NCBI RefSeq assembly: GCF_037975245.1
Contig: NC_092572.1
Span: 25,081,989-25,145,988, forward strand
Origin: Apostichopus japonicus
Lineage: Eukaryota; Echinodermata; Holothuroidea; Aspidochirotida; Stichopodidae
Direction: 5' to 3'
Length of the DNA: 64,000 nt
Position numbers and translations under genes: made by a program. Shown in pieces: positions 20,653 to 52,500 of the stretch. How positions within the stretch are numbered: the stretch's first letter is position 1; each line of letters starts with the position of its first letter. Under the pieces are notes generated by a model. The model ran no database searches and had not been told where the DNA came from. It was given only the letters and a program-made list of their open reading frames with translations.

Positions 20653-20729
20653 TATTGATATTTGTTTTCCTCAATCGATTAAAGACATATTTGTCTTCAA
20701 GTTGGTAAGGAAGTTAGCAACAGTCGAAT
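20653..20729 (-). pseudogene. Relic LRR-like exon with in-frame stop
   Basis: Minus strand, 77 bp, the same length and phases (2 to 1) as the gene A exon at 29338-29414, with the same opening (F-D/E-C-C) and ending (N-I-N). The fifth codon after the split codon is TAA where gene A has TTG, and the middle no longer matches. With that stop, this copy of the NLR tail cannot be read through. No NACHT exon is visible upstream of it. Confidence 0.65.
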
Positions 20730-27184: not shown

Positions 27185-27400
27185 ATTGTAGTGAGTTAGA
27201 CATTCCAGAACAGTGAAAATACTTCCACAGGGACTCGAACCTGGGCCTTCCGCTTTATATGCGGACACCCTAACTACTAGGCTATGGACCCTGATTAAAT
27301 TCCCAGAGGTTCGAAACATGTAGGCTTTTGTCACCTGTATCAAACAATACTAGTTCTGTTTTGATGACATATTTGCCTTACTCTAGAGATCAAACATAAT
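27185..27400 (-). mobile_element. tRNA-derived SINE (same family as 52248-52500)
   Basis: Reverse-complement match to the 52.4-kb copy over about 200 bp. The tRNA-like head has B-box GGTTCGAGTCC and A-box region TAGCCTAGTAGTTAGG on the minus strand. Its outer part overlaps the end of a minus-strand open frame (27383-27646). Confidence 0.75.
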
Positions 27401-27655: not shown

Positions 27656-30600
27656 CTACCTGAAATAGTTAATTGTACAGATGGGAGTATTTATTATTCA
27701 TGTTATACTGAATAAAGTTACGTAAGAATTACATCGATGTCTTAGAGAAATGTCATAACACAGTATCGCATAGACAAACATATAATAAAAAAGCTCATTT
27801 ATCATGTCTTGAAATGTGTTCAAAATTTTGAAGTATTACATTTTTACCTAGTAAGTATTCATCTACAACATTCAACAATTTTCTGTATATTTTATAATAA
27901 AACAAGGAAACTTGATACATGTTTTGCTTACATACAAATATAAACACTATTAGTAACAGGAAATAACAACACGTATTTTGCTAAATTAAAGGTCAAATGC
28001 TTGTGTTATCTCTTCCTCGACTCGTGGTATATCAGGACAAATTAATAAAAATGGTAGTAAATGGATAATTTAGACATCCTTTGCTTGGTGAGCTGAATAC
28101 TTTGAACGATTGCATACGTATTAACTATAGCTAATACAGAATTTATAATATGTGTTATAGACAACATTCGATGCCAACAATCGGCAGTAACATTAGTTAA
28201 TCTACCTACCTCCATTCTACGCGAAATTCCTGGACCTGTGTGTAAAATATAGATTAAATAACTAAAAATTGTTTGAAAAAAATTGTAGACACTTTTCTAG
28301 ACAGTCAGGAATACATTAAGTTAGATTGAAAGTTAGTTACACCGAACATTCCAACCCCTGAATTAGGTCATTAACCCCCTTTATATTGTTGTCAGAGACC
28401 TTTATATGATACATGATTTCTTGTCAAGATATTGCGTTTAATATGAAGTTGTATAAAAGTAAAATATCGTATGTTCTTTAACATATGTGCTCTTGTAACA
28501 ACATTATGACAAATCGATATTTTATTACCCTAATAATTCCGGACTCGGTATCTAACCGCTTCTGTGTCCTTTAATATACTATGTGCAATTAAAAACACCA
28601 AATTTAGCGATTTTTATTCATACTTACCTCCTTCTCATATGTCATTGCTTGTTTACCATATCGTTCCTGAAATTAAAGTTGACATATTGTAAAATGCCAA
28701 AATATCGAAGTAAATGATTACACATATAGTGCCCAATGTTGAATGCAATCTCACACAAATACAACTAATTTATTCTACATTGTCTGAGGACGAATTAAAT
28801 TATTTAATCTTTTAGTTCCCAACATAACGTTGGTTTGTATAATATTAAAACCTCTTGTTTAGAAAATAGTTTTGATGCATGGTAAAACAAGTTATTCCAG
28901 CAAGAGATAGAAAAAGGTGTATATACAATAGTTTTGCAGCATTGAGCCGCGTTCTTATCTTGTCTTTACATTTTTTATTCAACTAAAAATATACATAAAA
29001 TACTAACGTTCCACTGGCCTGTTGAGTCAAGAATAAACCACTTTGCAATAGGAATCCAGAGCACTGAAACAATACAAGAAAGTGTTATGTCATAATACAT
29101 GATATTGATTAACTTTGTTTGATTGCTATTTGTAATGACATAATACAAATTGTTAACATCAATTTGAAATAAATGTTATTAAAACGCACACACACGAAGC
29201 TTTTTAAAGTGTGATAATATTTTATTTCATTTAATCAGTGATTATAATGGGAACATAAACGTTAATATGGCTATGACTATGGCATCGTTCACGTGACAAA
29301 TTGAAAGATACCATTTCTTGGTTACTACACAACTTACCATTGATATTGTTTATTTGTATTTCGTTTAGCAGGTGACTGTTCTGCAAAGATGGTGGAAGCA
29401 AGCAACATTCGAACCTGCAAAACAGTATAGACCTTAGTTAATGAGTTTCTGTTTATATTATTTCAGTTTTGATTGCGTATAACTTTAAAATACACGGCAC
29501 CGTTTTGGGGGGTCTCTTAAAAAAATTATCGGAAGACTTCAATTTTTAAGTTATTTATTAACTTTTTCATGTTTTATTAAAGATTGACCTCAGAACTGGA
29601 ACAATTATAATTATACTTGAAGATACAGATAATTAGAATTACTTACGATATATTTTTTAACCGGTCGCATGTAAGGGAGTATTCTAAAATACCTTCCAGC
29701 TCATCTTTTGAAATCTCCCGGCCCATTTCAGTTATCTTCAATTCATCGACATAGGATAATTTTTGGACTTGTAAACCAGAAGTCAGCGAAATGCATTTTG
29801 TACTTCGATGAGCAGAACTAAAGCAATTTTCGAATTGAATGCAAGTGACGGGAATCTGCATAAAAGGAATCATTAACGATTTCATATGAGAAAAAAAAAT
29901 AGTGAAGCGAAACACATCAAATCAACCCTACCCACAAAGAACATATTAAATTATAAAAGAAAACATGAGCCTAGGACCTAATCACTGTCTTCGTCCAGCA
30001 TAATTACTTTTAAAATAATCTGCTTCATACTTTGTTAATGAATGCAATGAAAATAACTAAAACAAAACTTGCCTCAGCCTTTGATGCAATCGCAACAAGC
30101 TGTAATGATGACTTTTGAAGTAATCTGCTGTCCGCTGAACTTATTGTAACACAATTCAGGCAAAGTTCCTTCAGGCTCTCCTTGATTTCAATAAGCTTTC
30201 CAGTACTTTCCAGTACACATAAAATTGCCAATTTATGACCGGTAAGATATGTGATTATCGTCTCAGCAGATTTAGAGTTGATTCCACAAGCAAATCGATA
30301 CACATACTGAAAATTAAACGGATCTAACTTTTGCAGAGTTCTTTTTAGATCAGCCATGGGTGTATTTTGGGTATATTTGGCTAAGTAATTAGCCGCGTAC
30401 CATTCACAAAAGAGTGGATGAAAGAATCTAACAAGAGTTTTGTTTGTTATGTCCTGTAAGTCTGTTACACCTGCACTACTAATAGTTTTCATACCTTCTT
30501 CTTCTACTAGAATACCGACTCTAATATAATGATCATAGAATTCCTTTCCCAGTTTTTCAAGCATCGCCTTCTTGTTCCATTCAATGCTTCGTCGATTACC

Positions 30601-33600
30601 CATGAGACCATCGAACGCCAATTTATCTAACTTTTCGTGCTCTCTCTCCAAGCTTTTGTAACGCTTGCTGATTTCAGCATTAGCCTTATTTCTAAGATGG
30701 CTGTGAAAACAAGATACTACACAGCTAAAGAAGCTTGTGACAGTTTCAAAATTTGCATCGATTTTTCTGTGATGTATTAGATGTGCAAACATAACAAAGA
30801 ACAGAGGAACTTCGCAAATCTCCCAGAGAACTGGGTTCTGATTTATTCGTTGCATTAATGTTTTCGCTGCTTCAGGATCATTTGGAACTATAGCCTTTTT
30901 TATGTATGCATTTTGGGCTCTTTCATTAAACCCGGTTAACCTGACTACGACAGATTGTGGTGCAATTGTTTTCGGCACCACTTGTGTTCTGGTGGTTAGA
31001 ATTACTACGAACTGTTGAAACATATTTCTTCGGATAATGTGTGTGATGTCATTACTTTCACTTAAGTCTTGATCTGGGTATTCATCGTAACCATCTAGCA
31101 GCACCACAACAGATTTACAGTAGTGCATGACAGCTTTGATATCTTCTGGTGTTAATAAAGAGTCGCGAGGGAGTACAGTTAACTTAACTGCTTCATAGAA
31201 TGACTGAACACCATCCAGCTGCCTCAGTCGAAGGCTTATGAACAGTTCAATGTTCAGCATGGGTGAACACGAAGCTTTGTTACACCAGTCATATGCAAAC
31301 TGCAGAGCAATTGTAGATTTCCCATGACCAGGGTCTCCCTCTACGAGACGTATAGTAGAGTTAACAAGGGGATCTTCTAAGATGCTGTGATAGGAATCTA
31401 AAGCAGTCCATGTATCTTTAACAGTTTTGCGACCTATCGAAGTCGCCAATTGAATGCCACCATCTACAAAAACTTCATTAACACAAAAAATGCTATCGCT
31501 CAGAAATGGTATAGGTTTAATAGCGTTGTATTGGTTTTCATAGGTACCTCTTAACTGCTTTACCAACTCTCGTTTTATAGCTGTGGGAAAAGATGAAACA
31601 CATGGTAACTTTTAATAAATCAGAAATTGTGCCTTTTGAAGTTTTTGCAGTAAACTTCGTCAACTATTGATGTCAGTTTCTATTGATTGTGTAGCAATAA
31701 CATGGCAAATGTGTGTAGATTCTAAAAATGCAACTACTAAAACTGGGAAACTCACAGCAGATATATTGTGATTGGTTATCATTTATTACTACCATCATTA
31801 CCTTCAAGTTGGTCAGTGTTAGGATCAATCCTATTCATCAGCAGGAACTTCTAGAAAGTAAAAAATAATCGAGCATTATAATAAGGAAAATGTATGTTCG
31901 TGCTATACATACTGCATGGGTTCATGATTACGTTACCAGTAAAGGGAACTCGTTTTATTTGTCAAAGTACAGGCATATATTGAAGATAAACACTTTTGCA
32001 AACTGTATTATCATAGATATTAAACATTAATGAATCAGACAGTTGTTGTCTACTTTCACCTGATGGTAAGGAATACCTTTTACTCGTATAACTTTAGATG
32101 TTAAACTCTTTATGTCTTACCTCTTCCTGCTCGTTTTGCCTTCCCAAGGTGTCAACGACACCTTGACCTGTCAGCTGGCGTTTTCTGTTACGGGCTACAA
32201 AAAAAGTACAAAAATATTCCCTGAAATACGTAAGTGTAGAGTAAATGTCAAATTAAGCGATAAACATCCATACGGCCGTTTGAGAGCGCTTAATTGAAAC
32301 CTCTTTAATATGTCTCTTATATATCTTTAATATATTATTATACAAAATGTGTAAAGATAGATAGCGGTGTCGAGACCATATATGCTAATGACCTCTTGTG
32401 CTTAGAAGAACACTAGACACTGAAACTGATGTTTTTATACAATAATTTGAACAAAAAGAAACACGGTCTACCTGAAGAAGAAAATGAGTAAATTTTTCAT
32501 CTGATTACTATGAACTGCGAAACATTTGAACTATTTCTCTTTGAATTGTATTCAAAACGGTATTTTAAAGTTCATAATGTGAATTATGTTTGAAATGACA
32601 TTACCTGATTTAAGAATCAAATACATAACAAAAAACACGATAATAAGAAGTCCAATCAAAGGCACGCCGATAGCTAGAAATATCTTCCTTTTCCGGTCAG
32701 TGGAAATGACGGGGCTTTGTAAGTTAACTTCAGTGTTTGACTCTGGTTGTAAATGACAATAAAATACGTTAGTTTTAAATGCCACACTGTTTCACAGATG
32801 AAACACTCAATATGATATTGGAATGTTACTTACATGAAGGGCTGGAATCAATTTTAGGACATGCAACAAGGTCAAAAGGCAATCGAGTGTGGTGTTTTGT
32901 TTACATTTTAACAAAGGATGACAGTAAATATGTATATACACACACACATGTATATATATAAATATATACAGTAAATTTACAGTATGATGCAATACAAATA
33001 TTTCATTCATGGCTATCAATGTGTTATACGTGTAGTTATGGTTGTTTCTAAAAGAACAGATTGTAGAGGTATTTTAAACTGGAAATGGCAGTAACGTTGG
33101 ACTCATAAAAGAAAACAACGTACCCTCATGGAAAAATAGTTCAAACTTTTTCGACATCTCAAACAGATCAGCATATTCCCCATATGTTTTACACTCGAAC
33201 CTGATTCTATCTTTATACGTGTGCAATCTGTACTTTGTCTTAAGAACCACTTCATATGTGTCTCCGTTGCTGGTCACGACAGTTTCTTCATTTACCACGG
33301 TTATCATCAAAGAATCGTCGAAGGACAGAGTAACCAACTTTAGACGCACCACTGGACGTACTCTATGAAGAGAACATGTCAGAGTTCCTTCTTGTTCAGC
33401 TTCGATGATGCAGTACTGATTTTCATCACAGCCACTCATGATAGGATATGGAGGATCTGGGATAACTGGTTGTCAGAAAGGAAAACAATTACACAACTGG
33501 CTTTTTGACAAGTCTAGATGTAGAAACAGAGATGGTTTGAGGTTCTTAACACCAGCACTCACACTTAACGTAATAAACAGCACAACCTTGCGACTAGACG

Positions 33601-36600
33601 TAATTATAGTCTTGATTCATAGTCTAAATATGCCCTGAAATTAACATATTGACGTATTTTTTGAGGGGGAGGAAAACCCCAAACACCGTACATGGGAGTC
33701 AGCTTCCACAACCCCAGACCGAACCCGCCTTGATAACTCCTGGATCTGCTGATGTAATTGATTATTGTATGATTATTTCGTAGAAACTCTACAATGCCAG
33801 TTTTATTCCATTATACCAACTCAAATGACGGGAGAAAAAAAAACGTACTTATTGACTTACCATAAACTAAAACATGATAGAAATTTGTCATATCGCTGTC
33901 ACCATCATTGTAATTGCAAGAGTACAGACCATCTTGGTTAGGATTTATATCAATCAACTTCAACGATCCATTAAAGCCTACCTCAACAGTTTCTGACATG
34001 GAATTTCTTATGTTATCTTTAAGAAATATTGCCCATGCTACCTGCTCAACTGTGTTTTCGTGAAATTTCGTCCAGACTAGGTAAAATAATTCACCTTGTG
34101 TACAATGAATAACTGTGTTTGATCCTTTCTCAACCAAACGTCTTTCGGAACTTGAATATTCTGGTCTAAATCTGTAATATTGTTGTACCAGCAACACAGA
34201 TTCTTCAGACTTAAGAAGCTTTGGTAATGTACTACCTTTGCACACCAGAAGTAATAATTGTCCTGGGTTTAAAGGTTGGCTTATCATAACAGCATATGAA
34301 GAGAAAGTTATGTTGCCGTTTACGACGCCCTTTTCTTGTGATACTATATCGATTTCACCTTCAGCAATTCTCCTGGACCAGAAAATATCAACTGCTGGTC
34401 TTGCGTTTTGAACAGCGCAAGTGATTGTTAAAGCGTTCTCGATTGGAAGAAAACATATCCTTGTTTTTTCACTGCACTGGTCTATAACAGGGAAAGGTTT
34501 ATCTGGCCTTACTATGAACAAAGAGTAAAGAAATTAAGATATGAATATGATATATACCTTGTTTATATGTATTAAAATATATCTTGTTATTATCTTATAA
34601 TTTTTTATAATCAAGCTGTGATTACTAAACAAAATGGAATCTTTATGCCAACTTATTTAAGTAATCTTGCCGACAAATTTCCAAAATTTATTATTGTTAC
34701 CGTATTTCTGTTTCTACTGTTCCTTTAAGTTTGTATTTTGTATCAAAGTCTGCACTACAAGCCCCAGAATTGTTGCGGACATTCTATATCTTATTGTACA
34801 CTAACAAAGCATTATCAATGCGCTTTAAAGATACTTACCGATGACGTACGCAGTCGCGACATGACGTATTGGTATAGCAGACTGTGTATGGAAAAGTAGT
34901 GCTGTGAAATTGTGCTCGTGGTCTATTGAAACATTTGTCACTACAAGGGAACCGTCAACCTCAATCTCGTATTCTCCAGAGTTGTCAGCAGTTTTGACAC
35001 CTTCTGTTATGCTTATGATAGGTATAGCTTGAACTGTATCATCTGAATCATACCAATATACCCCGTAAAAGTTATCAGAGAATGAACAATTTATGATGCC
35101 ATTCTTTCCTAACTCTAGGAATTGTGTTACATGATGTATTTCTGTTACCAGTCCACCTGCAATGAAATGTAAAAACATACTTCATGGTGAGATCATTCCA
35201 TTGCAAATAGATGTACATACTGTAACCGAACTTGCGTAGTGTTTAAGCTTTGAGGGTTATTCTTTAAGCTGTATAGACTGTTTAAGTGATGTAATGATTC
35301 TATGTCGGGAAATCCCCGTTAAGTTGTTTACTATGACGTAAGTAATCGTGCACCTGGCCTCTCGGTCTCCGGAAGTCTGGTGACTGCAACACTAAGGCGG
35401 TGCTCTTTGAAGTAGTAACTTTCTCACGCGCGTAAACTTAAGCCATTGTTCAGGCTAGTATAAAAGGAGCTGTTGGTACGTGCAGCGAGGGACTCTTTGC
35501 CAAAATATCACAAGACGTCTACGTACGGTACGTTATCATATCATTTACTATTATCCAAGTTGGTAGGTTTCTAATACCACGGCACCGTGTATAACTGTTC
35601 TTAGATATTGTAAGCGCTCAGAATATTATTGGATACATTTGTGAGTTGTATAAATTGTTAGCAAACTGCACTATTGCACTGAGGGAGATTACGCCCAATT
35701 ATTTAGGAGTAACGTTATTGACCGATTGTTATCATTTTACGTTATTCAGTAGCGCTCTGAACTACGTGACAATGTGTGTACTTTAGTAGAGATCAGTATT
35801 CTGCCGTGATTGTATATTTTTCAGTTAGTCCGTAAGTAGGAACATAAGTGAATAGCCTAGGTCAGATATCAGAAGATACGTTACTGCCATTTAGTCAATC
35901 GATTGGTTCTTAGTATATTTGCATCTGTTAAAGGTATTGCAGACACCGTTTAGTTAACCCTATAGCTTTGAATCTGTTTACATATTTAGAACCTGCGTTT
36001 GGCGTTCCGTTTATCGCCGTGTTATACGTTGCGTTATACGCTGCGTGTGGCGCCGCGTTGGACGTTGCGTTGGACGTTGCGTTGGACGCCGCGTTTTACG
36101 TTGCGTTCCGCGCTGCGTTGGGCGCCGCGTTGTGCGTTGCGTTATACGCTGCGTGTGGCGCCGCGTTGGACGCTGCGTTGGGCGCTGCGTTTAGTGCCGT
36201 GTTCTGCGCTGCGTTTAGACGCCGCGTTTAGGAATTGCGTTAACCTTTACGTTATGCGTAATGCAAAGATAAGCACTAAGTAAGAACCTTTAATGAACCT
36301 AAGTGTAAGAACACGGAGGTCTGAATAAACGGTACCACTGTGCCACGGGCACTTTATCATCCTCTTCATTGTCATCTTTTTGTCGAGACTCTCTTCCGCC
36401 AACCCCAGTTTTAAAGACTGCCCCACCAGACAGGGAAGTGACGTTACATTGGTGGCAGCGATTGGGATTTGTATCACGTGCTGACTGTTGGTGAACTGGG
36501 CGGCGACAAACCAGTCCAAGATGCCTGGGGTTAATCCCTTTGACGACAGCCTAAGTAGCGACAGGATGGCCTGGGCTTTACGGGGAGAAGAACAGCCGGA

Positions 36601-39600
36601 TGAGAGTCTGTCAGGATGGTCAGAGGAGGGGATGTTATCGTGGCCAGCACAGTGGTGTCGGGACAGAGAAACTGCAGGACGGTGCCCTGTCGGACTGGAC
36701 GGCTACACGGAGGATGGCGGTCGGACTAGCAAGGGTGAAGGTGGACCAGAAAGGGAGCCCTTTCGAGGAGGAAGAACTTGGATTCCGGTGGCTAGTAGTG
36801 TCGAGCAACACCAAGGATTTAGCGCTGGCGTCAACTCACGAGGTCAGAGAGAACGGAGAGACTCGAAGAGGAAAGATGCGCCAAACAGTGGCCCACCAGC
36901 GTTGAACAGTGGAAACCCATTCCTCGGCGACATGCGGCCGGCCGATGAGAGACACTTCGACGGGAGAGAACCCCACGTGTACGGCGACGGTGGTGAAACT
37001 AACATAGGTAAGAATAACTTACTTTTTGCAGGTGCTGACAGAAGATTGCCGCAGATGCCGATAGGTAACACTCACAGGGCCCCACCTCCTACCTTTGACG
37101 GTTCAACACCATGGAAGGATTACTTGGTACAGTTCGAGCTAATAGCTGAACTCAATGGATGGGACGAACGCTGTAGATCTCTGCAGCTTGCTGCAAGTCT
37201 ACGTGGTCCGGCGCAAGCAGTTCTGGCCGATTTGGAACCAGTTCGGAGACGGAGGTTTAATTTACTGGTTGATGCCTTGGAGCAGCGATTTGGAAAAAGG
37301 AATCAAACAGAAGTTTTCAAGGCAATACTACGAAACAGATCCAGGAACCCGACAGAGACCCTGCCTGAACTAGCACACGACATCAAACGGTTGCTTAGCC
37401 GTGCCTATCCAGATGCCTCATTAGAGATGAAGGAGACGCTGGCTAAAGATTTCTTTATCGACGCTCTTGGAGACAGTGACATCAAATGGAAAGTATACCA
37501 AGCACGCCCAAGATGCTTAGAAGACGCCGTGACTATAGCAGTAGAGCTTGAAGCTTTTGGCCTAGCTGAGTCAAAGAAATCTTCGTCCCGAAAACTAGCG
37601 GTACGTACTGTTGGTGAAAAAGTCGAGCCGAAGATGAAACCGGAAGTGGGTGATGAACTTGCGAAAACGCTCATGACTGCACTGGAGAAGGGTTTCCAGA
37701 CTTTGACTCAACAGTTGTCACAATTGCAAACAAGTAGACTGAATGGGCCAGGTGGATACAGAAGGAAGATGAACGACGGGAAGTGCTGGGAATGCGGTGA
37801 GACGGGTCATTTTAGTCGAGACTGTCCAGAGCGCAAGAAGGGACAGACTTTCCCAAGAGAGTACAAACGACAGGGAAACGAGCAGTAGCCAGCCTCGAAG
37901 GGCAGAGACTGGCTAGCAGCAATGACACGCCCACAAAGATAACGTTGAAAAGTAGAGCATTGTCGGTAGGGCAGAACGGACTCTATGTGACGGGAAGGCT
38001 TGAAGGTGTCCAAGTGAATTTCCTTGTAGACACTGGAGCTAATATCACTTTGATAAGTCCTGAAGTCTACATGACGCTACCAGAACAAGGAAGACCAGCT
38101 TTAACAGACGCTTCTCTTGAGATGAACGTAGCAGATGGCAGACCCCTTGTTTTTCACGGCAGAGGCTATTTTCAACTAGAAATCAGTGGTGTGAAAGTGA
38201 AACACGAAATCTGGGTGGCTAATATCGACACAGATGGCTTATTGGGATATAAGTTCTTGCAGATGTACAACTGTACCATAGACGCTGGAAAGGGTCAGCT
38301 AACTATTGGTTGTGAGCGGCAACAGGACAACAAGGAGAAGCCAAGGGAAGGCTGTTGTAGGGTTGCGCTTGGGGAAACCGTAGTGGTGGCACCAGAGAGC
38401 GAACGAGTGGTGACAGGGAGGCTTACAGAAGAGGAACGATATCGAGGACCGGCTGTGACGGAGTACAGCGAGAGGTTCCTGAAGCGTCATGGACTGATGT
38501 TGGCCAGGGTTGTGGTGGATACTTCAGAGGAAGACGTGCCATTACGGCTATTGAATCCCAGTGCGATGCCAGTCACTATTTACAAAGGTACGATGGTTGG
38601 CTCGTGTCATGCTGTGAATGTAATTGATGATAACACGGATAGGATATCAGGATGCCGATCTGTATCGGAATCTTCGGGTTCAAGGCGGTCGTCCGGAGCA
38701 ACAAGACGAATGGAGCTGGCGGAACACGTGCGGGATCTAGCCGAAAGAAGCTGCTGCAACCTGGACACGGCTCAACGGGAGCATGTAAAGGAGATGCTGG
38801 CTGAGTTTGCTGACGTGTTTGCAAAGTCTCCTGAGGACCTGGGACGCACCAACTTGGCGAAGCACCGAATAGACATTGGCAACGCAAAACCTATTCGACA
38901 GGCAGCTAGAAGACTCCCAATTCATCAGAAAGCAGAAGCGCAAAAGGAAATTAACAGGATGTTACGTGAAGACATTATTGAGCCTTCATCTAGTTCTTGG
39001 TCCTCTCCAGTGGTATTGGTTAAGAAGAAAGATGGCTCTACTAGATTCTGCGTAGATTACCGGAAGCTGAACGCCGTCACTACGAAGGATTGTTATCCCC
39101 TACCCCGTATTGATGACTCTCTGGATACACTGGCAGGTTCGAGGTGGTTTTCCACATTGGATCTGGCCAGTGGTTACTGGCAGGTAGAAATGGAGGAAGG
39201 AGACCGACCGAAGACGGCATTCGTGACCTACAGTGGCTTTTATCAATTCAAAGTATTACCTTTTGGGTTATGCAACGCTCCCGCTACGTTTGAGAGATTG
39301 ATGGAGAGAGTGTTGAAAGGGCTACAGTGGCAGACGTGTCTGTTGTACTTGGACGACGTCATAGTCTATGGAGAAACATTTGAGAAAGCGCTACTCAGGC
39401 TGACCGAAGTGTTGGGTAAACTACGGGACGCCGGACTAAAACTTTCTCCCAAGAAGTGTAACCTGTTTCAGAACCAAGTAACCTACTTGGGCCACATCGT
39501 TTCCCAAGATGGCATTTTACCAGATAAGGACAAAACACAAGCTGTAACAGATTGGCCAACTCCATCTTCCACGACGCAGGTTCGTAGCTTTGTAGGACTC

Positions 39601-42600
39601 TGCTCTTATTACCGAAGGTTCATCCAAGGATTTGCCGAAATATGTTCTCCTTTGCATAAGTTGACAGAGAAAAATGTGAAGTTCAGATGGACAAAAAACT
39701 GCGAGAGAGCCTTTCAAAAACTGAAACGAGCCCTGACGTCAGCACCTGTGTTAGCATACCCCATTGACGATGAAACGTTCATCTTGGATACGGATGCTTG
39801 TGACGTAGGAATCGGCGCTGTACTTTCGCAGAGGCAGCCAGGCAAACAGTGCGAGAGGGTGATTGCATACTTTAGCAGGTCTCTTTCGAAGACAGAAAGA
39901 CGCTACTGTGTTACTCGGAAAGAATTGCTGGCTGTTGTTGCCTCAGTAAAGCATTTCCATCACTACCTATACGGAAGAAAGTTTTTGTTGAGAACGGATC
40001 ATGCAGCACTCAGATGGCTGACGAACTTTCGAAATCCTGAAGGACAAGTGGCGAGATGGCTGGAGACGTTCATGACGTATGACTGTGAAATACAACATAG
40101 ACCCGGAAAACAACATGGAAATGCTGATGGCTTATCACGAAGACCTTGTGAAGACTGTACCTACTGCGAAAGGGTCGAAGCCAGAGAACAAGTTGGTGTT
40201 AAAGAACAACTATCTGATATTACAGCACCAGGACTATACACGTTAACGGGAAAGGAAGAGGACAATGTTATCGAAAACCCAGAGACTAACAGTGAACTAG
40301 GTACACCGCCCGAGGAGAAGACGAACTCATGGATTCGGACCAGAACGAACAAAGAATGGAGGGACATACAAGTTCGTGATAAAGATGTTGGACTTATCGT
40401 TCTTTGGAAGCAGATTCAGAACTCGAGGCCAACGTGGGAACAAGTCGCATCCGAGAGTCCCACTTTGAGAAATTACTGGACACAATGGGATCGGCTCCAG
40501 TTGCGAGACGGAGTCCTCCACCGCTGCTTCGAGTCTGGAACAGGAGCAACGCAGTTATGGCAACTTATAGTACCACAGGAACTGCAAGAAGAAATACTGG
40601 AAAATGCTCACAACCATCGTCTGTCTGGTCACCTCATGGGAAGGAAAACGCTAGGTAGAATACGTGATCATTTCTACTGGAGCGGGTACCGTCGAGCTGT
40701 GGAGAAGTGGTGCAAGAATTGTGATACCTGTGCGTCACGAAAGGGCCCTATGAAGAGACCGAAGGGGAAAATGAAGCAGTATATCTCCGGTGAGCCTCTA
40801 CAAAGATGCGCTATGGACATAATGGGTCCACTTCCAGTGTCAGACAGGGGCAATAAGTATGTGCTGGTGATAGCAGATTATTTCAGCAAATGGACGGAGG
40901 CTTATGCTATGCCGGATATGGAGGCAGGAACAGTTGCGAATATATTGGTAGAAGAGTTTTTCTGTCGCTTCGGAATACCAGGGGAAATTCACACAGACCA
41001 AGGACGAAAGTTCGAGTCCCAATTGTTCCAACAGATGTGCAAACTTCTTGACGTCAAAAAGACCAGGACTACACCATTTCATCCGCAATCAGACGGGATG
41101 GTGGAAAGATTTAACAGGACGCTGGAGGCGATGCTGTCTACGGTCGTAAGCGAGAATCAAAAAGACTGGGATTCCTGGCTTCCCTTTGTTATGATGGCAT
41201 ACAGATCAGCCGAGCACGAGAGTACAGGGTATTCCCCCGCTGAACTTTTGCTAGGGCGACAAGTCATACTACCGTTACAATTTCACCTCCCGAAGACACC
41301 TGATGAGACGACTAAATCGCTTAACCAGTACGTCGAGGAGCTCGAACGGCGATTGAGGACAGTACATGAAAATGCAAGGAAACATCTCAAGATGGCGAGT
41401 AACAAACAGAAGAGATTACATGACAGGAGAGCCTTTTGTCATACCTATCAGGATGGAGATCTGATATGGCTCCTGAATACTACCAGGAAGAAAGGCATCT
41501 CCCCTAAACTGCAGAGACCCTGGGTAGGACCAGGAAAAGTACTCAAGAAACTGACTGACGTACTCTACCGTGTTAAGATGGGGCCAAGAATGCGACCAAA
41601 AGTGGTACATCATGACCGATTGAAAGCTTACACGGGTGACGATCCCCCTCTATGGATCCTAAAACGAGAGCCGGAGATGGAAACCAAAATAGTCTCCACA
41701 ATGTCAAAGTTATCCTAATGTTCTTCTTTCTCTTTTTATTTTTCAGAAAATGGAGAAAGATAAGTTCGAGGTTCAGTACTGTTGTACAGGCTGCAGTAAG
41801 AAGTTCTCAAAGAGGGTCGATCTTGAAAACCACTACAAGGAGAAACACGAGAGACCTCGACGACAGTTCACGTGCCAGCATTGTGATTATTCTTCTGACA
41901 GGAGATTCGACATCACACGTCACACTGCCAGCCGACACACCGAGAATGCCAAACCGAAAGACCCTTGCACTGTTTCCACCGAAACTTACGAATTAGAATC
42001 AGGACATGGATCAAGAAAACGGCAAAGCAACGGCGTTAAGACACCTCCGAAGGTCAAGAGGAGGGAAAATTCATGGCCATCACTGGATTCCCTACTTGGA
42101 TCTCCGATCAAGGACATTGGTGGACCGAATGACGGGAAGGACAAGAGGGAGGGCAAAGATCGCCCGTCCCCTCCGCCTACACCACGAACGACACCGGCGA
42201 AGAAAAAGAACTGTGAGAAAACTTCCCCCGTTATCACCAACCCACTGGCCAAACAGTCAAACCGGCAATCCCCTCGATCGGCCCTGTCCATTATAGGAGA
42301 GGATAAAGTTGACCTGGAAGACGACAGCAAGTTGGAACAAAGGGTGACCACTAACGTATTCCCAGATGGACGAATCAAGGTCGTGGTTGAAAGATTCCAG
42401 AGGAACGACGCGTGGAACTGAACCAGTTGTTTATATAAGTTTGTAAATATGTTTATAATGTAAATATGTTAATATTTTCTGTGTTATTGTGTTAAGATAA
42501 CGAGAGTGGTAGCCGTGTTATTCTAACGTAGGAAATTTGTTTAAAGTAATAGTTATTCTCAAGTAAGTAAATGCGAGGACGCATTTGGAGCTAAGGTGGG

Positions 42601-45465
42601 AGGTGTGTAACCGAACTTGCGTAGTGTTTAAGCTTTGAGGGTTATTCTTTAAGCTGTATAGACTGTTTAAGTGATGTAATGATTCTATGTCGGGAAATCC
42701 CCGTTAAGTTGTTTACTATGACGTAAGTAATCGTGCACCTGGCCTCTCGGTCTCCGGAAGTCTGGTGACTGCAACACTAAGGCGGTGCTCTTTGAAGTAG
42801 TAACTTTCTCACGCGCGTAAACTTAAGCCATTGTTCAGGCTAGTATAAAAGGAGCTGTTGGTACGTGCAGCGAGGGACTCTTTGCCAAAATATCACAAGA
42901 CGTCTACGTACGGTACGTTATCATATCATTTACTATTATCCAAGTTGGTAGGTTTCTAATACCACGGCACCGTGTATAACTGTTCTTAGATATTGTAAGC
43001 GCTCAGAATATTATTGGATACATTTGTGAGTTGTATAAATTGTTAGCAAACTGCACTATTGCACTGAGGGAGATTACGCCCAATTATTTAGGAGTAACGT
43101 TATTGACCGATTGTTATCATTTTACGTTATTCAGTAGCGCTCTGAACTACGTGACAATGTGTGTACTTTAGTAGAGATCAGTATTCTGCCGTGATTGTAT
43201 ATTTTTCAGTTAGTCCGTAAGTAGGAACATAAGTGAATAGCCTAGGTCAGATATCAGAAGATACGTTACTGCCATTTAGTCAATCGATTGGTTCTTAGTA
43301 TATTTGCATCTGTTAAAGGTATTGCAGACACCGTTTAGTTAACCCTATAGCTTTGAATCTGTTTACATATTTAGAACCTGCGTTTGGCGTTCCGTTTATC
43401 GCCGTGTTATACGTTGCGTTATACGCTGCGTGTGGCGCCGCGTTGGACGTTGCGTTGGACGTTGCGTTGGACGCCGCGTTTTACGTTGCGTTCCGCGCTG
43501 CGTTGGGCGCCGCGTTGTGCGTTGCGTTATACGCTGCGTGTGGCGCCGCGTTGGACGCTGCGTTGGGCGCTGCGTTTAGTGCCGTGTTCTGCGCTGCGTT
43601 TAGACGCCGCGTTTAGGAATTGCGTTAACCTTTACGTTATGCGTAATGCAAAGATAAGCACTAAGTAAGAACCTTTAATGAACCTAAGTGTAAGAACACG
43701 GAGGTCTGAATAAACGGTACCACTGTGCCACGGGCACTTTATCATCCTCTTCATTGTCATCTTTTTGTCGAGACTCTCTTCCGCCAACCCCAGTTTTAAA
43801 GACTGCCCCACCAGACAGGGAAGTGACGTTACAATACATTTGCATACGGTAAATAATCAAAATGGCTCAACTGCATTCCATTATAGCATTATCTACCTTT
43901 TTTTATCGATACTTGATGCATTTTATACTCCTTTATCTTGCTACTTTCAGATGCAAAACTCACCAAATATAATTTAATGTTTATATGAACAATTTTCATT
44001 TTATATTTGCATATTATTAATACTAACATTAAATCTCTCTCGGCGATTTGATTCTACTTTTAGTTTGAATAACAAAATCATTTTTAATCGATACTTTGGA
44101 GGAAATATCTTACTGAAGACAGGCTCCATTACTGTCTAGCTTGTATTAGCATAGGACTGTACTTCTCGAATTTCTATTTGCATATGAGTCCAAAGTCGAG
44201 TCTAACTTGGAATATAGGACTGAGATGTTCGTTTTCGTGAACCCTTTTGAACCGTCTGAGAGGTTAGATTGAACCATCAATAATTTAATCTGTGAGAGTC
44301 ATATGGTTTAGGTTAACATTCTCAATATTGCTGTAAAACCACTTTTTTGTTTTTCGAAAATGCTACAGAATTGGATGCTGATTTTAAGCCAAAATAAATT
44401 TTGATATGAATATTTTATACATTTCATAATACTTCTGTATACTACAATACAATATAAGTGTGTATGGCTTTTTATTCCGCGTAACAAGTTAGTGTTCATA
44501 TTTGATATCCCATAGGAGCCCATGTACTGAACTCGAACTACCTGCTGTGTACTCGGACGTTTGAGCTCGGACTAGTTAGACGCGGGCTTGCCTCTGAATC
44601 AGATCTACTCGATTGATTTTAAGCATGTCTGATATATCTCTCCAAAAGCATACAACTGTTTGAAGATCTAATAAGAAATTAACTGTTACTCTAAAATCTC
44701 ATGCAGGGCCTTTTCTTGAATTATTAACTGGTGGAAGAGGGGAGGGGTGGAATTCAACAAGATACCTTTGCTTCAGTAATAACACCAGATTCTTTAACGG
44801 GTATTTCTATTGTTTAGTGGTCAAAAGGGGACGGGTATCACTTTCGCATACTAACTGTTTTCTACATAGTAAACTATCATGAGCTCCAAGCACCAATAGG
44901 TTAGAAAGAGGAACCACTATTATATTTCTTTTTAACATTTCGTTAGACCTCGCATTGAGCCCAATTCCGAAAGCCTCAGTAATTTAAGATATAAATACTT
45001 TCCACACAGGGATTTTAAAATTCAACTATTTATAGCAGAGAGATAAATTTCTATGACATGTGATCGCAATGTGCATTTTTCTTTATTCTCTGTTTCTTTT
45101 CCGCACATTGTTGAGTTTTCAAGAATCCCCTTACGACCACCCTCTCCTATCTAGGTTCAAATGTATTTAGGGTTAAAAACAAGAGAACTCAAAACTAGTC
45201 AAGAAAAAAGAAGAAGGATACTTTGCTCTCATTTTTTCCTAATAAATCAGCCATATTTGTTTGGGACCAGACAGGAGGGGATATGGTGAACAAGATGGAT
45301 CTATCTAGTAACTTACAAAGAAAAAAGGGTTTTATTTCCAGATACATGAATAATCCGGGTCGTCATATCTGTTACATTGTCAAAACTATCACTCACCTGT
45401 TATCGAAAGCATTAGGAGAGTTCCAAACAATGTTACGGATACATCCATGACAAGACCAGTTCAGA
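27656..45465 (-). CDS. Gene A: Ig-transmembrane-NACHT-LRR receptor (spliced)
   Basis: Predicted type I membrane receptor of about 1180 residues, assembled from 14 exons whose phases all agree. Order: signal peptide (about residues 1-18), Ig1 (to 123), Ig2 and Ig3 (to 340), Ig4 (to 454), transmembrane helix (about 475-498), basic linker, NACHT ATPase with Walker A GDPGHGKST (about 623-631) and Walker B LLDGYDE, sensor TTRT, then a leucine-rich tail. NACHT proteins (NLRs) are normally cytosolic sensors that oligomerise on ATP binding; Ig ectodomains normally recognise extracellular ligands. Both in one chain implies membrane-anchored NLR signalling (inference). Intron 1 (about 10.2 kb) holds a full LTR retrotransposon in antisense. 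The first exon has a splice acceptor before the ATG, so a 5' UTR exon exists upstream. The C-terminus is the least certain part. Confidence 0.8.
28210..28235 (-). CDS. Gene A exon: probable penultimate exon
   Basis: 26 bp, phase 0 to 2, encoding VQEFRVEW plus two bases, between ACACACAG and GTAGGT. If spliced to the acceptor at 27660, the next codon is Arg followed at once by a TAG (27656-27658), ending the protein. An alternative is splicing from 28628 directly to an open stretch at 27383-27646 whose stop lies in a SINE. Confidence 0.4.
28628..28666 (-). CDS. Gene A exon: short charged exon
   Basis: 39 bp, phase 0 to 0, encoding ERYGKQAMTYEKE between TTTCAG and GTAAGT. After this exon the reading frame totals exactly 1171 codons. 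Confidence 0.55.
29008..29063 (-). CDS. Gene A exon: WIP motif exon
   Basis: 56 bp, phase 1 to 0, encoding LWIPIAKWFILDSTGQWN. A homologous exon lies at 20478-20533. The donor GTTAGT is somewhat weak. Confidence 0.65.
29338..29414 (-). CDS. Gene A exon: leucine-rich tail, part 2
   Basis: 77 bp, phase 2 to 1, encoding FECCLLPPSLQNSHLLNEIQ and INNIN. With the preceding exon it forms an LRR-like unit. A decayed copy is at 20653-20729. Confidence 0.75.
29647..29855 (-). CDS. Gene A exon: leucine-rich tail, part 1
   Basis: 209 bp, phase 0 to 2. The acceptor TTTTATGCAG begins IPVTCIQFENC; the end (LEGILEYSLTCDRLKNI) has LRR-like spacing and continues in the next exon. Confidence 0.75.
30073..31580 (-). 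CDS. Gene A exon: NACHT ATPase
   Basis: 1508 bp, phase 1 to 0. After IKRELVKQLRGTY, the pre-NACHT segment reads IKPIPFLSD...VNEVFVDGG, typical of NLRs. Walker A GDPGHGKST, then FAYDWC; Walker B VVVLLDGYDEYPD; sensor ILTTRTQ; then winged-helix and superhelical segments (VRFFHPLFCEWYAANYLAKY; FQYVYRFACG). All ATP-binding residues are present, so the domain looks active. The donor is GC (GAG then GCAAGT), the accepted GC-AG variant. Confidence 0.93.
31802..31850 (-). CDS. Gene A exon: short linker
   Basis: 49 bp, phase 0 to 1, encoding KFLLMNRIDPNTDQLE between a TTTCTAG acceptor and a GTAATG donor. It joins in frame to the NACHT exon. Confidence 0.65.
32121..32194 (-). CDS. Gene A exon: basic juxtamembrane linker
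   Basis: 74 bp, phase 1 to 0. A strong polypyrimidine tract and TGTAG acceptor precede codons for RNRKRQLTGQGVVDTLGRQ, ending NEQEE before GTAAGA. The basic start fits the cytosolic side of a membrane anchor. Confidence 0.7.
32605..32742 (-). CDS. Gene A exon: transmembrane helix
   Basis: 138 bp, phase 1 to 1. A short polar stalk ends in DRKRK, followed by about 24 hydrophobic residues (IFLAIGVPLIGLLIIVFFVM...). The basic residues before the helix are unusual for the outer face, but the next exon supplies RNRKR on the inner side. Donor GTAATG. Confidence 0.85.
33124..33465 (-). CDS. Gene A exon: Ig domain 4
   Basis: 342 bp, phase 1 to 1. It repeats the layout of domain 2 (C-x5-C-x10-C, then RPVV), with a second sheet Cys in IRFECKTYG, but the core Trp is replaced (RLKL). 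The acceptor AACCAG and donor GTACGT are both good. Confidence 0.8.
33861..34511 (-). CDS. Gene A exon: Ig domains 2 and 3
   Basis: 651 bp, phase 1 to 1, encoding two Ig domains without an intron between them. Domain 2 has C-x6-C-x11-C (QCSEKTRIC...TITC), then RPAVDIFW and a later LLLLVCKGS. Domain 3 has IHC, core W (YLVWTKF) and the canonical DGLYSC. Several N-x-S/T sites. The donor is GTAAGT. Confidence 0.85.
34839..35156 (-). CDS. Gene A exon: Ig domain 1 (one canonical Cys missing)
   Basis: 318 bp, phase 1 to 1, the usual phase class of Ig exons. V-type features: first-strand Cys (GIINCSF), core Trp (VYWYD), and D-x-E-x-N-F where D-x-G-x-Y is usual. The expected second Cys is Ala (NFTALLF), so the disulphide cannot form in the normal way. 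Acceptor ATTGCAG, donor GTAAGTAT. Confidence 0.8.
35221..36448 (+). repeat. 5' LTR
   Basis: 1228 bp. TATA box TATAAAAGG at 35459-35467, AATAAA at 36324-36329. A CpG-rich, 6/12-bp periodic tract occupies about 35990-36235. If transcription starts about 30 bp after the TATA box, the R region is over 800 bp, long for an LTR. Confidence 0.95.
35459..35467 (+). promoter_or_regulatory. TATA box of the 5' LTR
   Basis: TATAAAAGG, 239 bp into the LTR; the start site is expected near 35490. The same site in the 3' LTR is at 42844-42852 and could drive read-through towards gene B. Confidence 0.8.
36449..36468 (+). promoter_or_regulatory. Primer binding site, tRNA-Leu type
   Basis: Directly after the LTR comes TTGGTGGCAGCG then ATTGGGATT. 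TGGTGGCAGCG is complementary to the 3' end of eukaryotic tRNA-Leu (...CGCTGCCA plus CCA), and the following bases also match with one extra base. The tRNA identity rests on remembered tRNA-Leu ends. Confidence 0.75.
36521..37888 (+). CDS. gag: Gag polyprotein
   Basis: 455 residues from the first ATG after the primer site. The N-terminal 150 residues are charged and Gly/Arg-rich. The middle carries a capsid-like region (about 190-330: DYLVQFELIAELNGWDE..., LVDALEQRFGKRNQTEVF), typical of Ty3/Gypsy Gag. The C-terminus has one CCHC zinc knuckle, CWECGETGHFSRDC (about 422-435), for RNA packaging. The frame could extend upstream only with a non-ATG codon, so I chose this ATG. It ends three codons after a slippery heptamer used to reach pol. 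Confidence 0.93.
   Translation: MPGVNPFDDSLSSDRMAWALRGEEQPDESLSGWSEEGMLSWPAQWCRDRETAGRCPVGLDGYTEDGGRTSKGEGGPEREPFRGGRTWIPVASSVEQHQGFSAGVNSRGQRERRDSKRKDAPNSGPPALNSGNPFLGDMRPADERHFDGREPHVYGDGGETNIGKNNLLFAGADRRLPQMPIGNTHRAPPPTFDGSTPWKDYLVQFELIAELNGWDERCRSLQLAASLRGPAQAVLADLEPVRRRRFNLLVDALEQRFGKRNQTEVFKAILRNRSRNPTETLPELAHDIKRLLSRAYPDASLEMKETLAKDFFIDALGDSDIKWKVYQARPRCLEDAVTIAVELEAFGLAESKKSSSRKLAVRTVGEKVEPKMKPEVGDELAKTLMTALEKGFQTLTQQLSQLQTSRLNGPGGYRRKMNDGKCWECGETGHFSRDCPERKKGQTFPREYKRQGNEQ
37873..37915 (+). promoter_or_regulatory. Probable -1 ribosomal frameshift signal between gag and pol
   Basis: The heptamer GGGAAAC (37873-37879) lies in the gag frame as G GGA AAC, the X XXY YYZ pattern. After a 6-nt spacer comes a stem TAGCCAG (37886-37892) pairing with CTGGCTA (37909-37915), 16-nt loop. 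The gag stop is within the stem. The pol frame is open from 37816 and is -1 to gag, so a slip here gives Gag-Pol. Confidence 0.8.
37879..41718 (+). CDS. pol: Pol polyprotein (protease, RT, RNase H, integrase)
   Basis: About 1280 codons, reached by -1 frameshift; there is no ATG near the 5' end. Protease: FLVDTGANITLIS (nt 38023 on). Reverse transcriptase: KKDGSTRFCVDYRKLN, then the catalytic YLDDVIVYG (about nt 39346-39372). RNase H: DTDACDVGIGAVL, RKELLAVV, LRTDHAALRWL. Integrase: H-x3-H type zinc finger (HNHRLSGH...CKNCDTC), catalytic D (AMDIMGPLP), D (IHTDQGRKF) and E (MVERFNRTLEAML); a GPY/F-like segment (RPWVGPGKVLKKL) follows. All catalytic residues are present and there is no internal stop, so the element may be active. 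Confidence 0.95.
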   Translation, partial: RAVASLEGQRLASSNDTPTKITLKSRALSVGQNGLYVTGRLEGVQVNFLVDTGANITLISPEVYMTLPEQGRPALTDASLEMNVADGRPLVFHGRGYFQLEISGVKVKHEIWVANIDTDGLLGYKFLQMYNCTIDAGKGQLTIGCERQQDNKEKPREGCCRVALGETVVVAPESERVVTGRLTEEERYRGPAVTEYSERFLKRHGLMLARVVVDTSEEDVPLRLLNPSAMPVTIYKGTMVGSCHAVNVIDDNTDRISGCRSVSESSGSRRSSGATRRMELAEHVRDLAERSCCNLDTAQREHVKEMLAEFADVFAKSPEDLGRTNLAKHRIDIGNAKPIRQAARRLPIHQKAEAQKEINRMLREDIIEPSSSSWSSPVVLVKKKDGSTRFCVDYRKLNAVTTKDCYPLPRIDDSLDTLAGSRWFSTLDLASGYWQVEMEEGDRPKTAFVTYSGFYQFKVLPFGLCNAPATFERLMERVLKGLQWQTCLLYLDDVIVYGETFEKALLRLTEVLGKLRDAGLKLSPKKCNLFQNQVTYLGHIVSQDGILPDKDKTQAVTDWPTPSSTTQVRSFVGLCSYYRRFIQGFAEICSPLHKLTEKNVKFRWTKNCERAFQKLKRALTSAPVLAYPIDDETFILDTDACDVGIGAVLSQRQPGKQCERVIAYFSRSLSKTERRYCVTRKELLAVVASVKHFHHYLYGRKFLLRTDHAALRWLTNFRNPEGQVARWLETFMTYDCEIQHRPGKQHGNADGLSRRPCEDCTYCERVEAREQVGVKEQLSDITAPGLYTLTGKEEDNVIENPETNSELGTPPEEKTNSWIRTRTNKEWRDIQVRDKDVGLIVLWKQIQNSRPTWEQVASESPTLRNYWTQWDRLQLRDGVLHRCFESGTGATQLWQLIVPQELQEEILENAHNHRLSGHLMGRKTLGRIRDHFYWSGYRRAVEKWCKNCDTCASRKGPMKRPKGKMKQYISGEPLQRCAMDIMGPLPVSDRGNKYVLVIADYFSKWTEAYAMPDMEAGTVANILVEEFFCRFGIPGEIHTDQGRKFESQLFQQMCKLLDVKKTRTTPFHPQSDGMVERFNRTLEAMLSTVVSENQKDWDSWLPFVMMAYRSAEHESTGYSPAELLLGRQVILPLQFHLPKTPDETTKSLNQYVEELERRLRTVHENARKHLKMASNKQKRLHDRRAFCHTYQDGDLIWLLNTTRKKGISPKLQRPWVGPGKVLKKLTDVLYRVKMGPRMRPKVVHHDRLKAYTGDDPPLWILKREPEMETKIVSTMSKLS
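41713..41746 (+). promoter_or_regulatory. Strong splice acceptor before the third ORF
   Basis: A branch-like TCCTAAT, a long run of T and C, and TTTTTCAG end at 41746, three bases before the ATG of the zinc-finger ORF. This suggests a spliced subgenomic message, as used for env genes. Possible donors lie in the leader and in gag (GTAAGA at 37008). Confidence 0.55.
41750..42421 (+). CDS. Accessory two-zinc-finger protein of the retrotransposon
   Basis: 223 residues. Two C2H2 fingers near the N-terminus: CTGCSKKF...HYKEKH (about 13-32) and CQHCDYSS...HTASRH (about 44-63), each C-x2-C-x12-H-x4-H. The rest is a basic, Ser/Pro-rich linker (KRQSNGVKTPPKVKRRE) and a folded-looking C-terminus (RVTTNVFPDGRIKVVVERF). 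It sits where an env gene would be but has no signal peptide or membrane segment. A nucleic-acid-binding role (regulation or targeting) is inferred. Confidence 0.8.
   Translation: MEKDKFEVQYCCTGCSKKFSKRVDLENHYKEKHERPRRQFTCQHCDYSSDRRFDITRHTASRHTENAKPKDPCTVSTETYELESGHGSRKRQSNGVKTPPKVKRRENSWPSLDSLLGSPIKDIGGPNDGKDKREGKDRPSPPPTPRTTPAKKKNCEKTSPVITNPLAKQSNRQSPRSALSIIGEDKVDLEDDSKLEQRVTTNVFPDGRIKVVVERFQRNDAWN
42593..42605 (+). promoter_or_regulatory. Polypurine tract
   Basis: AAGGTGGGAGGTG directly before the 3' LTR is the expected plus-strand primer; two T residues interrupt it. Confidence 0.6.
42606..43833 (+). repeat. 3' LTR
   Basis: 1228 bp, same length as the 5' LTR at a constant offset of 7385, and I found no difference by reading. 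AATAAA at 43709-43714. The same CpG-rich periodic tract is at about 43375-43620. Confidence 0.95.
43838..45396. other. Intron 1 of gene A, distal part
   Basis: AT-rich, with no exon that I could identify. It lies between the retrotransposon and the signal-peptide exon. Confidence 0.5.
45397..45465 (-). CDS. Gene A exon: 5' UTR end and signal peptide
   Basis: Minus strand. An acceptor (...TTTTTCAG) at 45467-45466 precedes 17 nt of leader and the ATG at 45448. It encodes MDVSVTLFGTLLMLSIT, a short hydrophobic signal peptide, then a phase-1 GTGAGT donor. Phase 1 matches the first Ig exon, whose acceptor at 35157 completes a Gly codon. The intervening intron contains the retrotransposon. Confidence 0.75.
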
Positions 45466-48487: not shown

Positions 48488-48532
48488 ATGCATAGAACAA
48501 CTCTCTCTACATATATATTCTATACGAGGAAA

Positions 48533-48857
48533 ATGTGGGTAGCTTTCAATTTGCTAACAATGACCACCATCTGCTACATAAGTAAGTCAGCAGCCACACA
48601 ACAGCCAGATTTCATCCTTCTCAACAGTAATTTAACCCTGCCGTGTCATGAGCTTTCAACCGGTGACAAACAGTGGAAACACGGAGAGAATGTTCTATTC
48701 TATAATAAAGCAATCTTGGATATAAATCTTGACCCACGAGTAAGCCTTGGAGATGATTACTCTTTGTCCATATCGAAGGTATCCCTATCGCACGAAGGGT
48801 CTTACCAGTGCCTTCAGGGGACACACACAATTGCTCAGTATGCACTGAGTGTGCAAG
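48533..48857 (+). CDS. Gene B exon: signal peptide and Ig domain
   Basis: From the ATG at 48533: MWVAFNLLTMTTICYIS is a signal peptide (an in-frame ATG at 48488 would add 15 residues). A V-type Ig domain follows: LTLPC, core W in KQWKHGE, then LSISKVSLSHEGSYQC with the canonical E-G-S-Y-x-C. The exon ends in phase 1 before GTTTGT, a weak donor. Unlike gene A, signal peptide and Ig domain share one exon. I could not find a transmembrane exon, so it may be secreted, incomplete or decaying. Confidence 0.6.
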
Positions 48858-49339
48858 GTTTGTGTTGTAAACTTTTTTCACATACTTTACCGATTATTCT
48901 TTGTTGAACTATGATTAGCGTCCAATTGTCTGGATATATAGTCGACGTTCGAAAACACTTCAATCAACTGCATATATGGTAGCTTAAACATTAGTTTATG
49001 TTTATAATATGCATATTGTATTCCCAAAGAAACCATGGTTCATCATGCATTGCCCATTAATTGCAAATTTCTCTTCAAATTAGAAAGTGTTACAATTGGA
49101 TGACTTTGTTATGTATATTGGTCGTAAACTGAAAATACAAGCAAATCCATCATAGTATCCCCTACTTTATGTATTCTATTTGCAATTGATGAAAACGCGT
49201 CTTCAAAAAAAAAATAATAATAGTTCAAAGAATGAAGATATATTGCGTCTGCTCTGAGGAAATACTGCGAAACTTATATGGCAAGTAATTAATGTAGTTT
49301 CTAGACATTTGGAGAGTGTTTTGATGAATATGAATGGGA

Positions 49340-52247: not shown

Positions 52248-52500
52248 ATTTTCGAGTTGGTTAGCATTATGTTTGATCTCTAGAGTAAGGCAAAATATGT
52301 CACCAAAAACAGAACTAGTATAGCTCGATACAGGTGTCAAACGCCTACAGTTAAATTACGACCTTCCTTACCGGTTTTGAACCTCTGGACATACAATAGG
52401 GGCCATGGCCTAGTTGGTTAGGGTGTCCGCGTACAAAGCGGGAGGCCCGGGTTCGAATCCCGGTGGATGCTGGAAGTTTTATCACAGTTCTGGATTTTCC
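52248..52500 (+). mobile_element. tRNA-derived SINE (same family as 27185-27400)
   Basis: Shares 'gcattatgtttgatctct' and the following ~200 bp with the minus-strand copy. Head about 52404-52475 with A-box TGGCCTAGTTGGTTAGG and perfect B-box GGTTCGAATCC. The acceptor ends do not pair, so it is not a working tRNA gene. Confidence 0.8.

Follow-up and report, generated by a model that had tools for sequence, protein, structure and literature searches.

The locus described here raises the question of whether a run of minus-strand exons encodes a single receptor, in which an immunoglobulin (Ig) ectodomain is joined through one transmembrane (TM) helix to a NACHT module, or two neighboring genes. 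If the chain is single, it must also be asked which of its parts faces outward and how the receptor would act. Such an architecture unites two immune toolkits that are normally separate. Throughout, the window means the whole 64,000-nucleotide stretch of Apostichopus japonicus DNA that was analyzed, to which all positions refer.

Gene model and domain composition

Joined in phase, fourteen minus-strand exons spanning 45448 to 27656 give a reading frame of 1180 residues with no internal stops (Table 1). Donors are GT in 12 of the 13 introns and GC in one (GCAAGT, after exon 8), all 13 acceptors are AG, and translation continued past the donor into any of the introns runs into a stop within 1-35 codons. 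Intron 1 measures 10,240 bases and introns 2-13 together 4,010 bases; no intron is shorter than 217 bases. Every intron flanking the Ig exons is in phase 1, the customary phase in Ig genes. The stop codon TAG lies at 27658-27656, with AATAAA 87 bases past its first base, and the receptor gene runs complete from its start codon through to a polyadenylation signal.

At the TM-to-NACHT junction, exon 5 leaves in phase 1, exon 6 runs from phase 1 to 0, exon 7 from phase 0 to 1, and exon 8 enters in phase 1. The three frames of exon 8 contain 40, 45 and 0 stops, and it is open solely in the joined frame. The matching phases that the earlier note had read along the minus strand thus hold for all 14 joined exons, this junction included.

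Table 1. Features of the receptor gene and of the retrotransposon in its first intron
Feature	Position	Strand	Phase and support
Exon 1: start codon and signal peptide (MDVSVTLFGTLLMLSIT...)	45397..45448	-	phase 0 to 1, donor GTGAGT; first 18 residues identical in P0001 and P0121
Exon 2: N-terminal Ig-type domain, single cysteine	34839..35156	-	phases 1-1; tblastn to relatives; family profile against CEACAM V-domain chains, 5vst E 2.9e-6
Exon 3: Ig domains 2 and 3	33861..34511	-	phases 1-1; Pfam on ORF: ig 1.2e-4, V-set 1.4e-4
Exon 4: Ig domain 4	33124..33465	-	phases 1-1; cysteine positions; C2-set_2 match here in relative P0004 (365-440)
Exon 5: stalk and single membrane helix (residues 475-497, 32615-32683)	32605..32742	-	phases 1-1; hydropathy peak 3.06
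Exon 6: basic juxtamembrane segment (RNRKRQ...)	32121..32194	-	phase 1 to 0; in P0001 and P0121
Exon 7: linker	31802..31850	-	phase 0 to 1; in P0121 (NILLMNRINPNTDPLE), missing from P0001
Exon 8: NACHT module (nucleotide-binding, helical, winged-helix regions), GC donor	30073..31580	-	one open frame; PF05729 5.8e-13 (ORF); NLRC4 8fvu E 4.8e-20 by family profile
Walker A GDPGHGKST, residues 623-631	31312..31338	-	G....GK[ST] here in 67/71 relatives
Walker B VVVLLDGYDEY, residues 699-709	31078..31110	-	D[GD].DE here in 66/71 relatives
Exon 9: start of family-conserved C-terminal tail	29647..29855	-	phase 0 to 2; tblastn to P0004, P0005
Exon 10: tail	29338..29414	-	phase 2 to 1; in P0001
Exon 11: tail	29008..29063	-	phase 1 to 0; in P0001
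Exon 12: tail	28628..28666	-	phase 0 to 0; in P0001
Exon 13: tail	28210..28235	-	phase 0 to 2; in P0001
Exon 14, coding part: completes last codon, stop TAG	27656..27659	-	splice site is the sole support; outside NCBI models
LTR retrotransposon (Gypsy type by eye), intron 1	35221..43833	+	LTRs 35221-36448, 42606-43833

The protein begins with a hydrophobic leader, judged to be a signal peptide from hydropathy and by eye, followed by four Ig-type regions whose bounds are our own (residues ~23-123, 124-236, 237-341 and 342-456). Domains 2-4 carry cysteines at the positions of the Ig pair (155/214, 260/322 and 371/432), which presumably form disulfides, whereas the first has one cysteine and resembles a CEACAM V-type domain in the family profile. 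In the joined protein, Pfam recognizes NACHT clearly (PF05729, 2.3e-12) and the Ig domains weakly (V-set 1.6e-5, just under the cut-off; ig 2e-4, just above it). The four Ig domains claimed previously therefore stand as four Ig-type regions, the first with one cysteine and Pfam support for Ig in this protein being weak. The hydropathy peak of the membrane helix covers residues 475-493, and the helix is followed by a basic juxtamembrane stretch, a linker, the NACHT module and a tail of 136 residues (1045-1180). Signal peptide, Ig ectodomain, a single TM helix and a NACHT module with both Walker motifs are thus all present in the joined protein, as had been proposed.

The best solved structure for the family profile, and for the NACHT module here, is vertebrate NLRC4. 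A winged-helix histidine motif is present in this protein (FFHPLFCEWYAA), and the family profile (FyHklFcEWYAA) aligns to FFHKSFQEYTA of NLRC4, a match that is weak by itself (i-Evalue 0.0055). The winged-helix histidine has a role with ADP. The tail had been called leucine-rich, a description that is not supported: leucine makes up 11.0% of it versus 10.7% of the NACHT module, it has no LxxLxL, and no LRR family occurs among the Pfam matches up to E 10. The tail is nevertheless shared by relatives. Pfam found no CARD, PYD or death-fold here, and none is included in the 22 families that 38 relatives match at 0.01.

Two NCBI models cover parts of the locus, both of them partial predictions from one A. 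japonicus assembly. BSL78_11538 (P0001) matches our model in three pieces, residues 1-525 (97.9%), 628-903 (93.5%) and 1037-1179 (93.7%); it uses exons 1-6 and then part of exon 8 onwards, leaving out exon 7 as well as the first part of exon 8, where Walker A lies. Judged from these matches, it is a partial model of this gene. BSL78_14634 (P0121) matches at 96.3% over residues 1-541 and comprises exons 1-7, exon 7 included. The present locus therefore contributes a family member whose NACHT exon is intact, Walker A having been lost from the public model.

The length of intron 1 includes an 8.6-kb LTR retrotransposon between exons 1 and 2. Its two LTRs of 1228 bp are identical, ATAC stands on both sides, and gag- and pol-like ORFs, named by eye, lie at 36485-37888 and 37816-41718. 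The element is a very recent insertion.

Other features of the window were noted in passing. At 20053-20737 on the minus strand lies what is left of the final exons of a P0004-like paralogue, in pieces 67-88% identical and with an in-frame stop; no NACHT exon belonging to it was found within the 64-kb window. A plus-strand ORF at 48410-48907 has a weak Ig match (Ig_3 2.9e-4, below the cut-off), with a hydrophobic stretch ahead of it by eye, and is perhaps the first exon of another Ig receptor. A second plus-strand ORF (55785-56654, 289 aa) has no significant Pfam match, the best being ANAPC4_WD40 at 0.037. tRNA-like sequences at 27220-27291 and 52398-52472 were called Tyr and Cys (anticodons ata and aca); since the ORFs across both share the peptide RVSAYKA, they are perhaps tRNA-derived repeats. 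A tandem repeat at 6965-7712 is open in several frames on both strands.

Relatives and the continuity of the chain

A search of ~5.8 billion proteins, with candidates limited by length and shared words, returned 177 matches. The best 120 comprise 44 from A. japonicus, 50 from Holothuria leucospilota and 26 from the 'lgn' source, perhaps an assembly of public reads, all of these being database entries, mostly gene predictions, that include isoforms, partial models and P0001 itself, and not a count of genes. The two sea cucumbers named among the matches carry many copies. When aligned with our model, 71 of the best 120 are filled to 60% in NACHT and in each of the four Ig regions, 20 fill no Ig region and the remaining 29 have these regions filled in part. 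The 71 have a helix at the same place in 68 cases, with three lacking one by hydropathy, Walker A in 67 and Walker B in 66. Pairs of Ig and NACHT domains, which the earlier note had proposed to seek in holothurian proteomes, are thus frequent among the best 120 matches. Among 38 near-full-length relatives chosen from the best 120, Pfam at 0.01 finds NACHT in all 38 and V-set in 34.

Identity to P0003-P0005 is 38-39% over 97-98% of this protein. In a tree made with FastTree only, used for gene position and species mixing, 34 of whose 113 inner branches are open and some long, the gene groups with P0001, P0004, P0005, P0009 and P0111 (SH-like 99). A. japonicus and H. leucospilota interleave on the tree, the fewest species-label changes being 6. 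P0001, P0005 and P0111 are BSL78_11538, 11535 and 11531, and since each is on a contig of 724,112 bases, this suggests that they form a gene cluster. P0002 and P0003 have a second Walker A ~630 residues past the first and, on that ground, are probably Ig-TM-NACHT-NACHT receptors with two NACHT modules.

The 'lgn' relatives bear on whether the junction is spliced. Of these 26, 22 cover at least 93% of the query, and the spare bases beyond coding on the contigs of those 22 number at most 1,500 in 15, at most 1,000 in 10, at most 700 in 6 and at most 200 in 2 (P0013 and P0026, whose contigs are almost wholly coding). Because 15 contigs could not hold the 4,010 bases of introns 2-13, paralogues very probably do have transcripts spliced across the TM-NACHT junction, unless the introns of those relatives are much smaller or the copies lack introns altogether. 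As the 'lgn' source includes genomic contigs, it is the shortness of the contigs, not their source, that carries this argument. A 275-residue protein, P0123, continues into intron sequence at either end of exon 3 and departs from that exon at 3 of 216 residues; by this resemblance it is exon 3 of this gene or of a near copy.

With the ectodomain alone as query, in the length range of NACHT-less proteins, 2 matches were obtained among 5811 candidates, and a six-row profile gave 3 among 5891. Within the searched length range and word filter, the ectodomain thus appears to occur only rarely without NACHT. Of these matches, P0121 is one of the two partial NCBI models and P0123 the exon-3 piece. 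P0122, a protein of 499 aa and 30% identity on a 2,729-base contig, ends just past the helix and may be a NACHT-less relative or isoform. Transcripts that end after the TM exon or begin at NACHT, with none across both, had been named as the finding that would speak against a single chain; P0122 is the sole sign of such a case.

Could the locus instead hold two neighboring genes, one for an Ig-TM receptor and the other for a soluble NACHT protein, whose phases agree by chance? The 20 Ig-less NACHT relatives among the best 120, some of them maybe partial models, would suit such an arrangement, as would P0122. However, P0001 and P0121, predictions from one assembly, both continue past the TM exon into linker exons, and P0001 beyond them into NACHT; a single chain is predicted in 71 of the best 120 relatives; and nearly the whole chain is found on 15 contigs that could not accommodate introns of the size seen here. 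On these grounds we reject two genes as scarcely credible, and the earlier proposal of one protein, not two neighbors, is upheld. A different concern is that the copy is damaged or silent, given that a young retrotransposon with identical LTRs cuts the signal-peptide exon from the rest and that the decayed paralogue 3' end at 20737-20053, with its in-frame stop, indicates that copies die here. This is unlikely, as the coding sequence is intact and the element is intronic and on the opposite strand. Long introns containing elements are commonly spliced. We therefore continue with the gene as an intact, single-chain receptor.

Orientation and action at the membrane

Two features of the family distinguish the sides of the helix. 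In the model and the 71 relatives, N-glycosylation sequons in the ectodomain number 516 versus 266.8 expected from shuffles (1.93), whereas in the cytosolic parts 242 are observed versus 261.8 expected (0.92). Lysine plus arginine is higher on the NACHT (C) side of the helix in 63 of 69 clear-helix proteins and lower in 1. Because of the sequon excess in ectodomains and the basic excess on the NACHT side, this is the signature, as predicted across the family, of Ig outside and NACHT inside.

This single-pass plan disagrees with the published topologies of two A. japonicus receptors, AjNLRC4, drawn with two helices, and AjNLR-new, drawn in reverse. A second TM at 776-795 is described for AjNLRC4 in the accessible text of PMC8699970; here that place is a stretch of the NACHT module. 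The matching stretch (~792-810) is aligned by the family profile to the soluble NLRC4, and we therefore think that it is not a membrane helix. Across the 71 relatives, residues 781-815 have a mean hydropathy peak of 1.54, reaching at least 1.6 in 26 and at least 1.8 in 8. Insofar as AjNLRC4 is known by its published coordinates, its 'second TM' would be part of the NACHT module, because the profile places that stretch within soluble NLRC4.

Action at the membrane has been described for AjNLRC4. According to the accessible text of PMC8699970, its Ig part binds bacteria, LPS, peptidoglycan and mannan; the receptor forms a dimer after Vibrio splendidus challenge and is internalized; its recombinant ectodomain forms oligomers; its inner (NACHT) part binds beta-actin with a Kd of 5.87 uM; and knockdown lowers phagocytosis. 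What that text reports is ectodomain oligomers and a post-infection dimer, not nucleotide-driven NACHT assembly. The same group, in the accessible part of PMC11932488, links internalized AjNLRC4 to caspase-1 and MLKL cleavage and has the Ig domain bind caspase-1, which fits a lumenal Ig domain poorly.

We propose that the present protein is probably a type I Ig4-TM-NACHT receptor of the AjNLRC4 kind. Its Ig ectodomain on coelomocytes would most likely bind microbial surfaces, binding would cluster the receptor chains, and the cytosolic NACHT, anchored through a single helix and a short basic linker, would be the inner partner, acting as a nucleotide-dependent assembly unit, an actin platform or both, whereupon the microbe would be engulfed. 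By analogy with AjNLRC4 we infer bacterial binding, dimerization, actin binding and phagocytosis for this paralogue, presumably with a ligand of its own, and nucleotide exchange would presumably be used. There may plausibly be a direct link from extracellular recognition to NACHT oligomerization, as suggested previously, and the retention of both Walker motifs across almost all of the 71 relatives favors a working nucleotide step.

Two alternatives concern the protein itself. NACHT might lie outside and Ig inside, as published for the paralogue AjNLR-new, for which the accessible text of PMC13133943 gives localization, antibody and binding experiments. Against this stand the signal peptide, the Ig cysteine positions, a sequon excess confined to the Ig side and the more basic NACHT side, and we regard an inverted topology as very improbable. 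PMC13133943 used TMHMM, and its main text never mentions a 'signal peptide'; the AjNLR-new model may have been reversed through a signal peptide read as a helix. More evenly poised is the possibility that NACHT is an actin-binding scaffold only, all clustering coming from the Ig ectodomain with no nucleotide switch. The oligomers of recombinant AjNLRC4 ectodomain and the binding of beta-actin by its inner part, both from the accessible text of PMC8699970, agree with such a role, but a mere scaffold would need neither of the Walker motifs kept in 67 and 66 of 71 relatives, nor a winged-helix motif that aligns to NLRC4. We hold a pure scaffold to be possible, though short of probable, and retain the Ig4-TM-NACHT receptor with clustering and NACHT as inner partner.

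A bolder extension, offered tentatively and in our view rather doubtful, is that sea cucumbers possess a large set of one-chain receptors in which the outside Ig works the inside NACHT without an adaptor, the published two-helix and NACHT-outside topologies being misreadings. If true, a STAND machine that elsewhere senses the cell interior would be fired from outside.

Comparison with known receptors

The earlier note knew of no characterized receptor of this design. That claim is mistaken, since a membrane receptor with the Ig-TM-NACHT layout, AjNLRC4, had been characterized in A. japonicus in 2021 (PMC8699970); its accession, MN607598, is quoted in the accessible part of PMC11932488. Its published layout (Ig-like 31-132, Ig 251-353, helix 483-503, NACHT 600-757) runs close to that found here (~23-123, 237-341, 475-497, 620-770), and neither protein has an LRR or a CARD. 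Because the coordinates differ, AjNLRC4 is taken as a paralogue of this gene, compared by coordinates and primer peptides. With at most 3 mismatches, the first of its ectodomain primer peptides fits 28 of 124 proteins (on average 5.6 after shuffling), with 21 of the 28 fits at residues 24-33, and the second fits 47 of 124 (on average 1.7 after shuffling), with 22 of the 47 fits at 343-356. The peptides of its intracellular, qPCR and siRNA oligos match nothing beyond chance in the 124 proteins: FGPGGPPP, MGQRPNLP and KANLEEQ occur in none, and other such peptides occur less often than in shuffles. The kinship therefore rests on the ectodomain peptides and the published coordinates. Exact primer peptides failed to pick out AjNLRC4 or AjNLR-new among the matches; by length, mass and pI, P0042 (1197 aa, pI 5.15 versus 5.34 published) is a possible, unproven candidate for one of them.

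AjNLR-new (PIK48001.1) is, by the description in the accessible text of PMC13133943, a protein of 1197 aa with Ig, helix and NACHT, and in this is like the present one; as drawn there, with Ig inside and NACHT outside, it is the reverse of the topology here. PMC13133943 was the sole match in a literature search using phrases for membrane or Ig-NACHT NLRs, and the accessible portions of PMC13228809, PMC9646362 and PMC11508797 describe no further Ig-TM-NACHT protein. In another sea cucumber, Chiridota heheva, NLRs with an Ig V-set domain are counted within 6 NLRs 'with other domains', and sea-urchin NLRs are said not to have yielded any of this type (accessible text of PMC8913654). By description, these carry the same domain pair.

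This protein shares with the canonical NLR (NACHT, LRR and an N-terminal effector) the NACHT alone. NLRC4 is cytosolic and has a CARD and LRR, neither of which was found in the present protein; this one has an ectodomain and a helix, even as the NACHT modules align. What the analysis adds is family-wide evidence on topology from sequons and charges, relevant to two published receptor models, and an indication that in the collection searched the ectodomain rarely occurs without NACHT. The signal peptide, Ig domains, helix at ~475-500, Walker A and B motifs and full-length kinship of the holothurian Ig4-TM-NACHT kind are all found here; that kind is already known, with AjNLRC4 as its one characterized member, and this locus is a further member of it.
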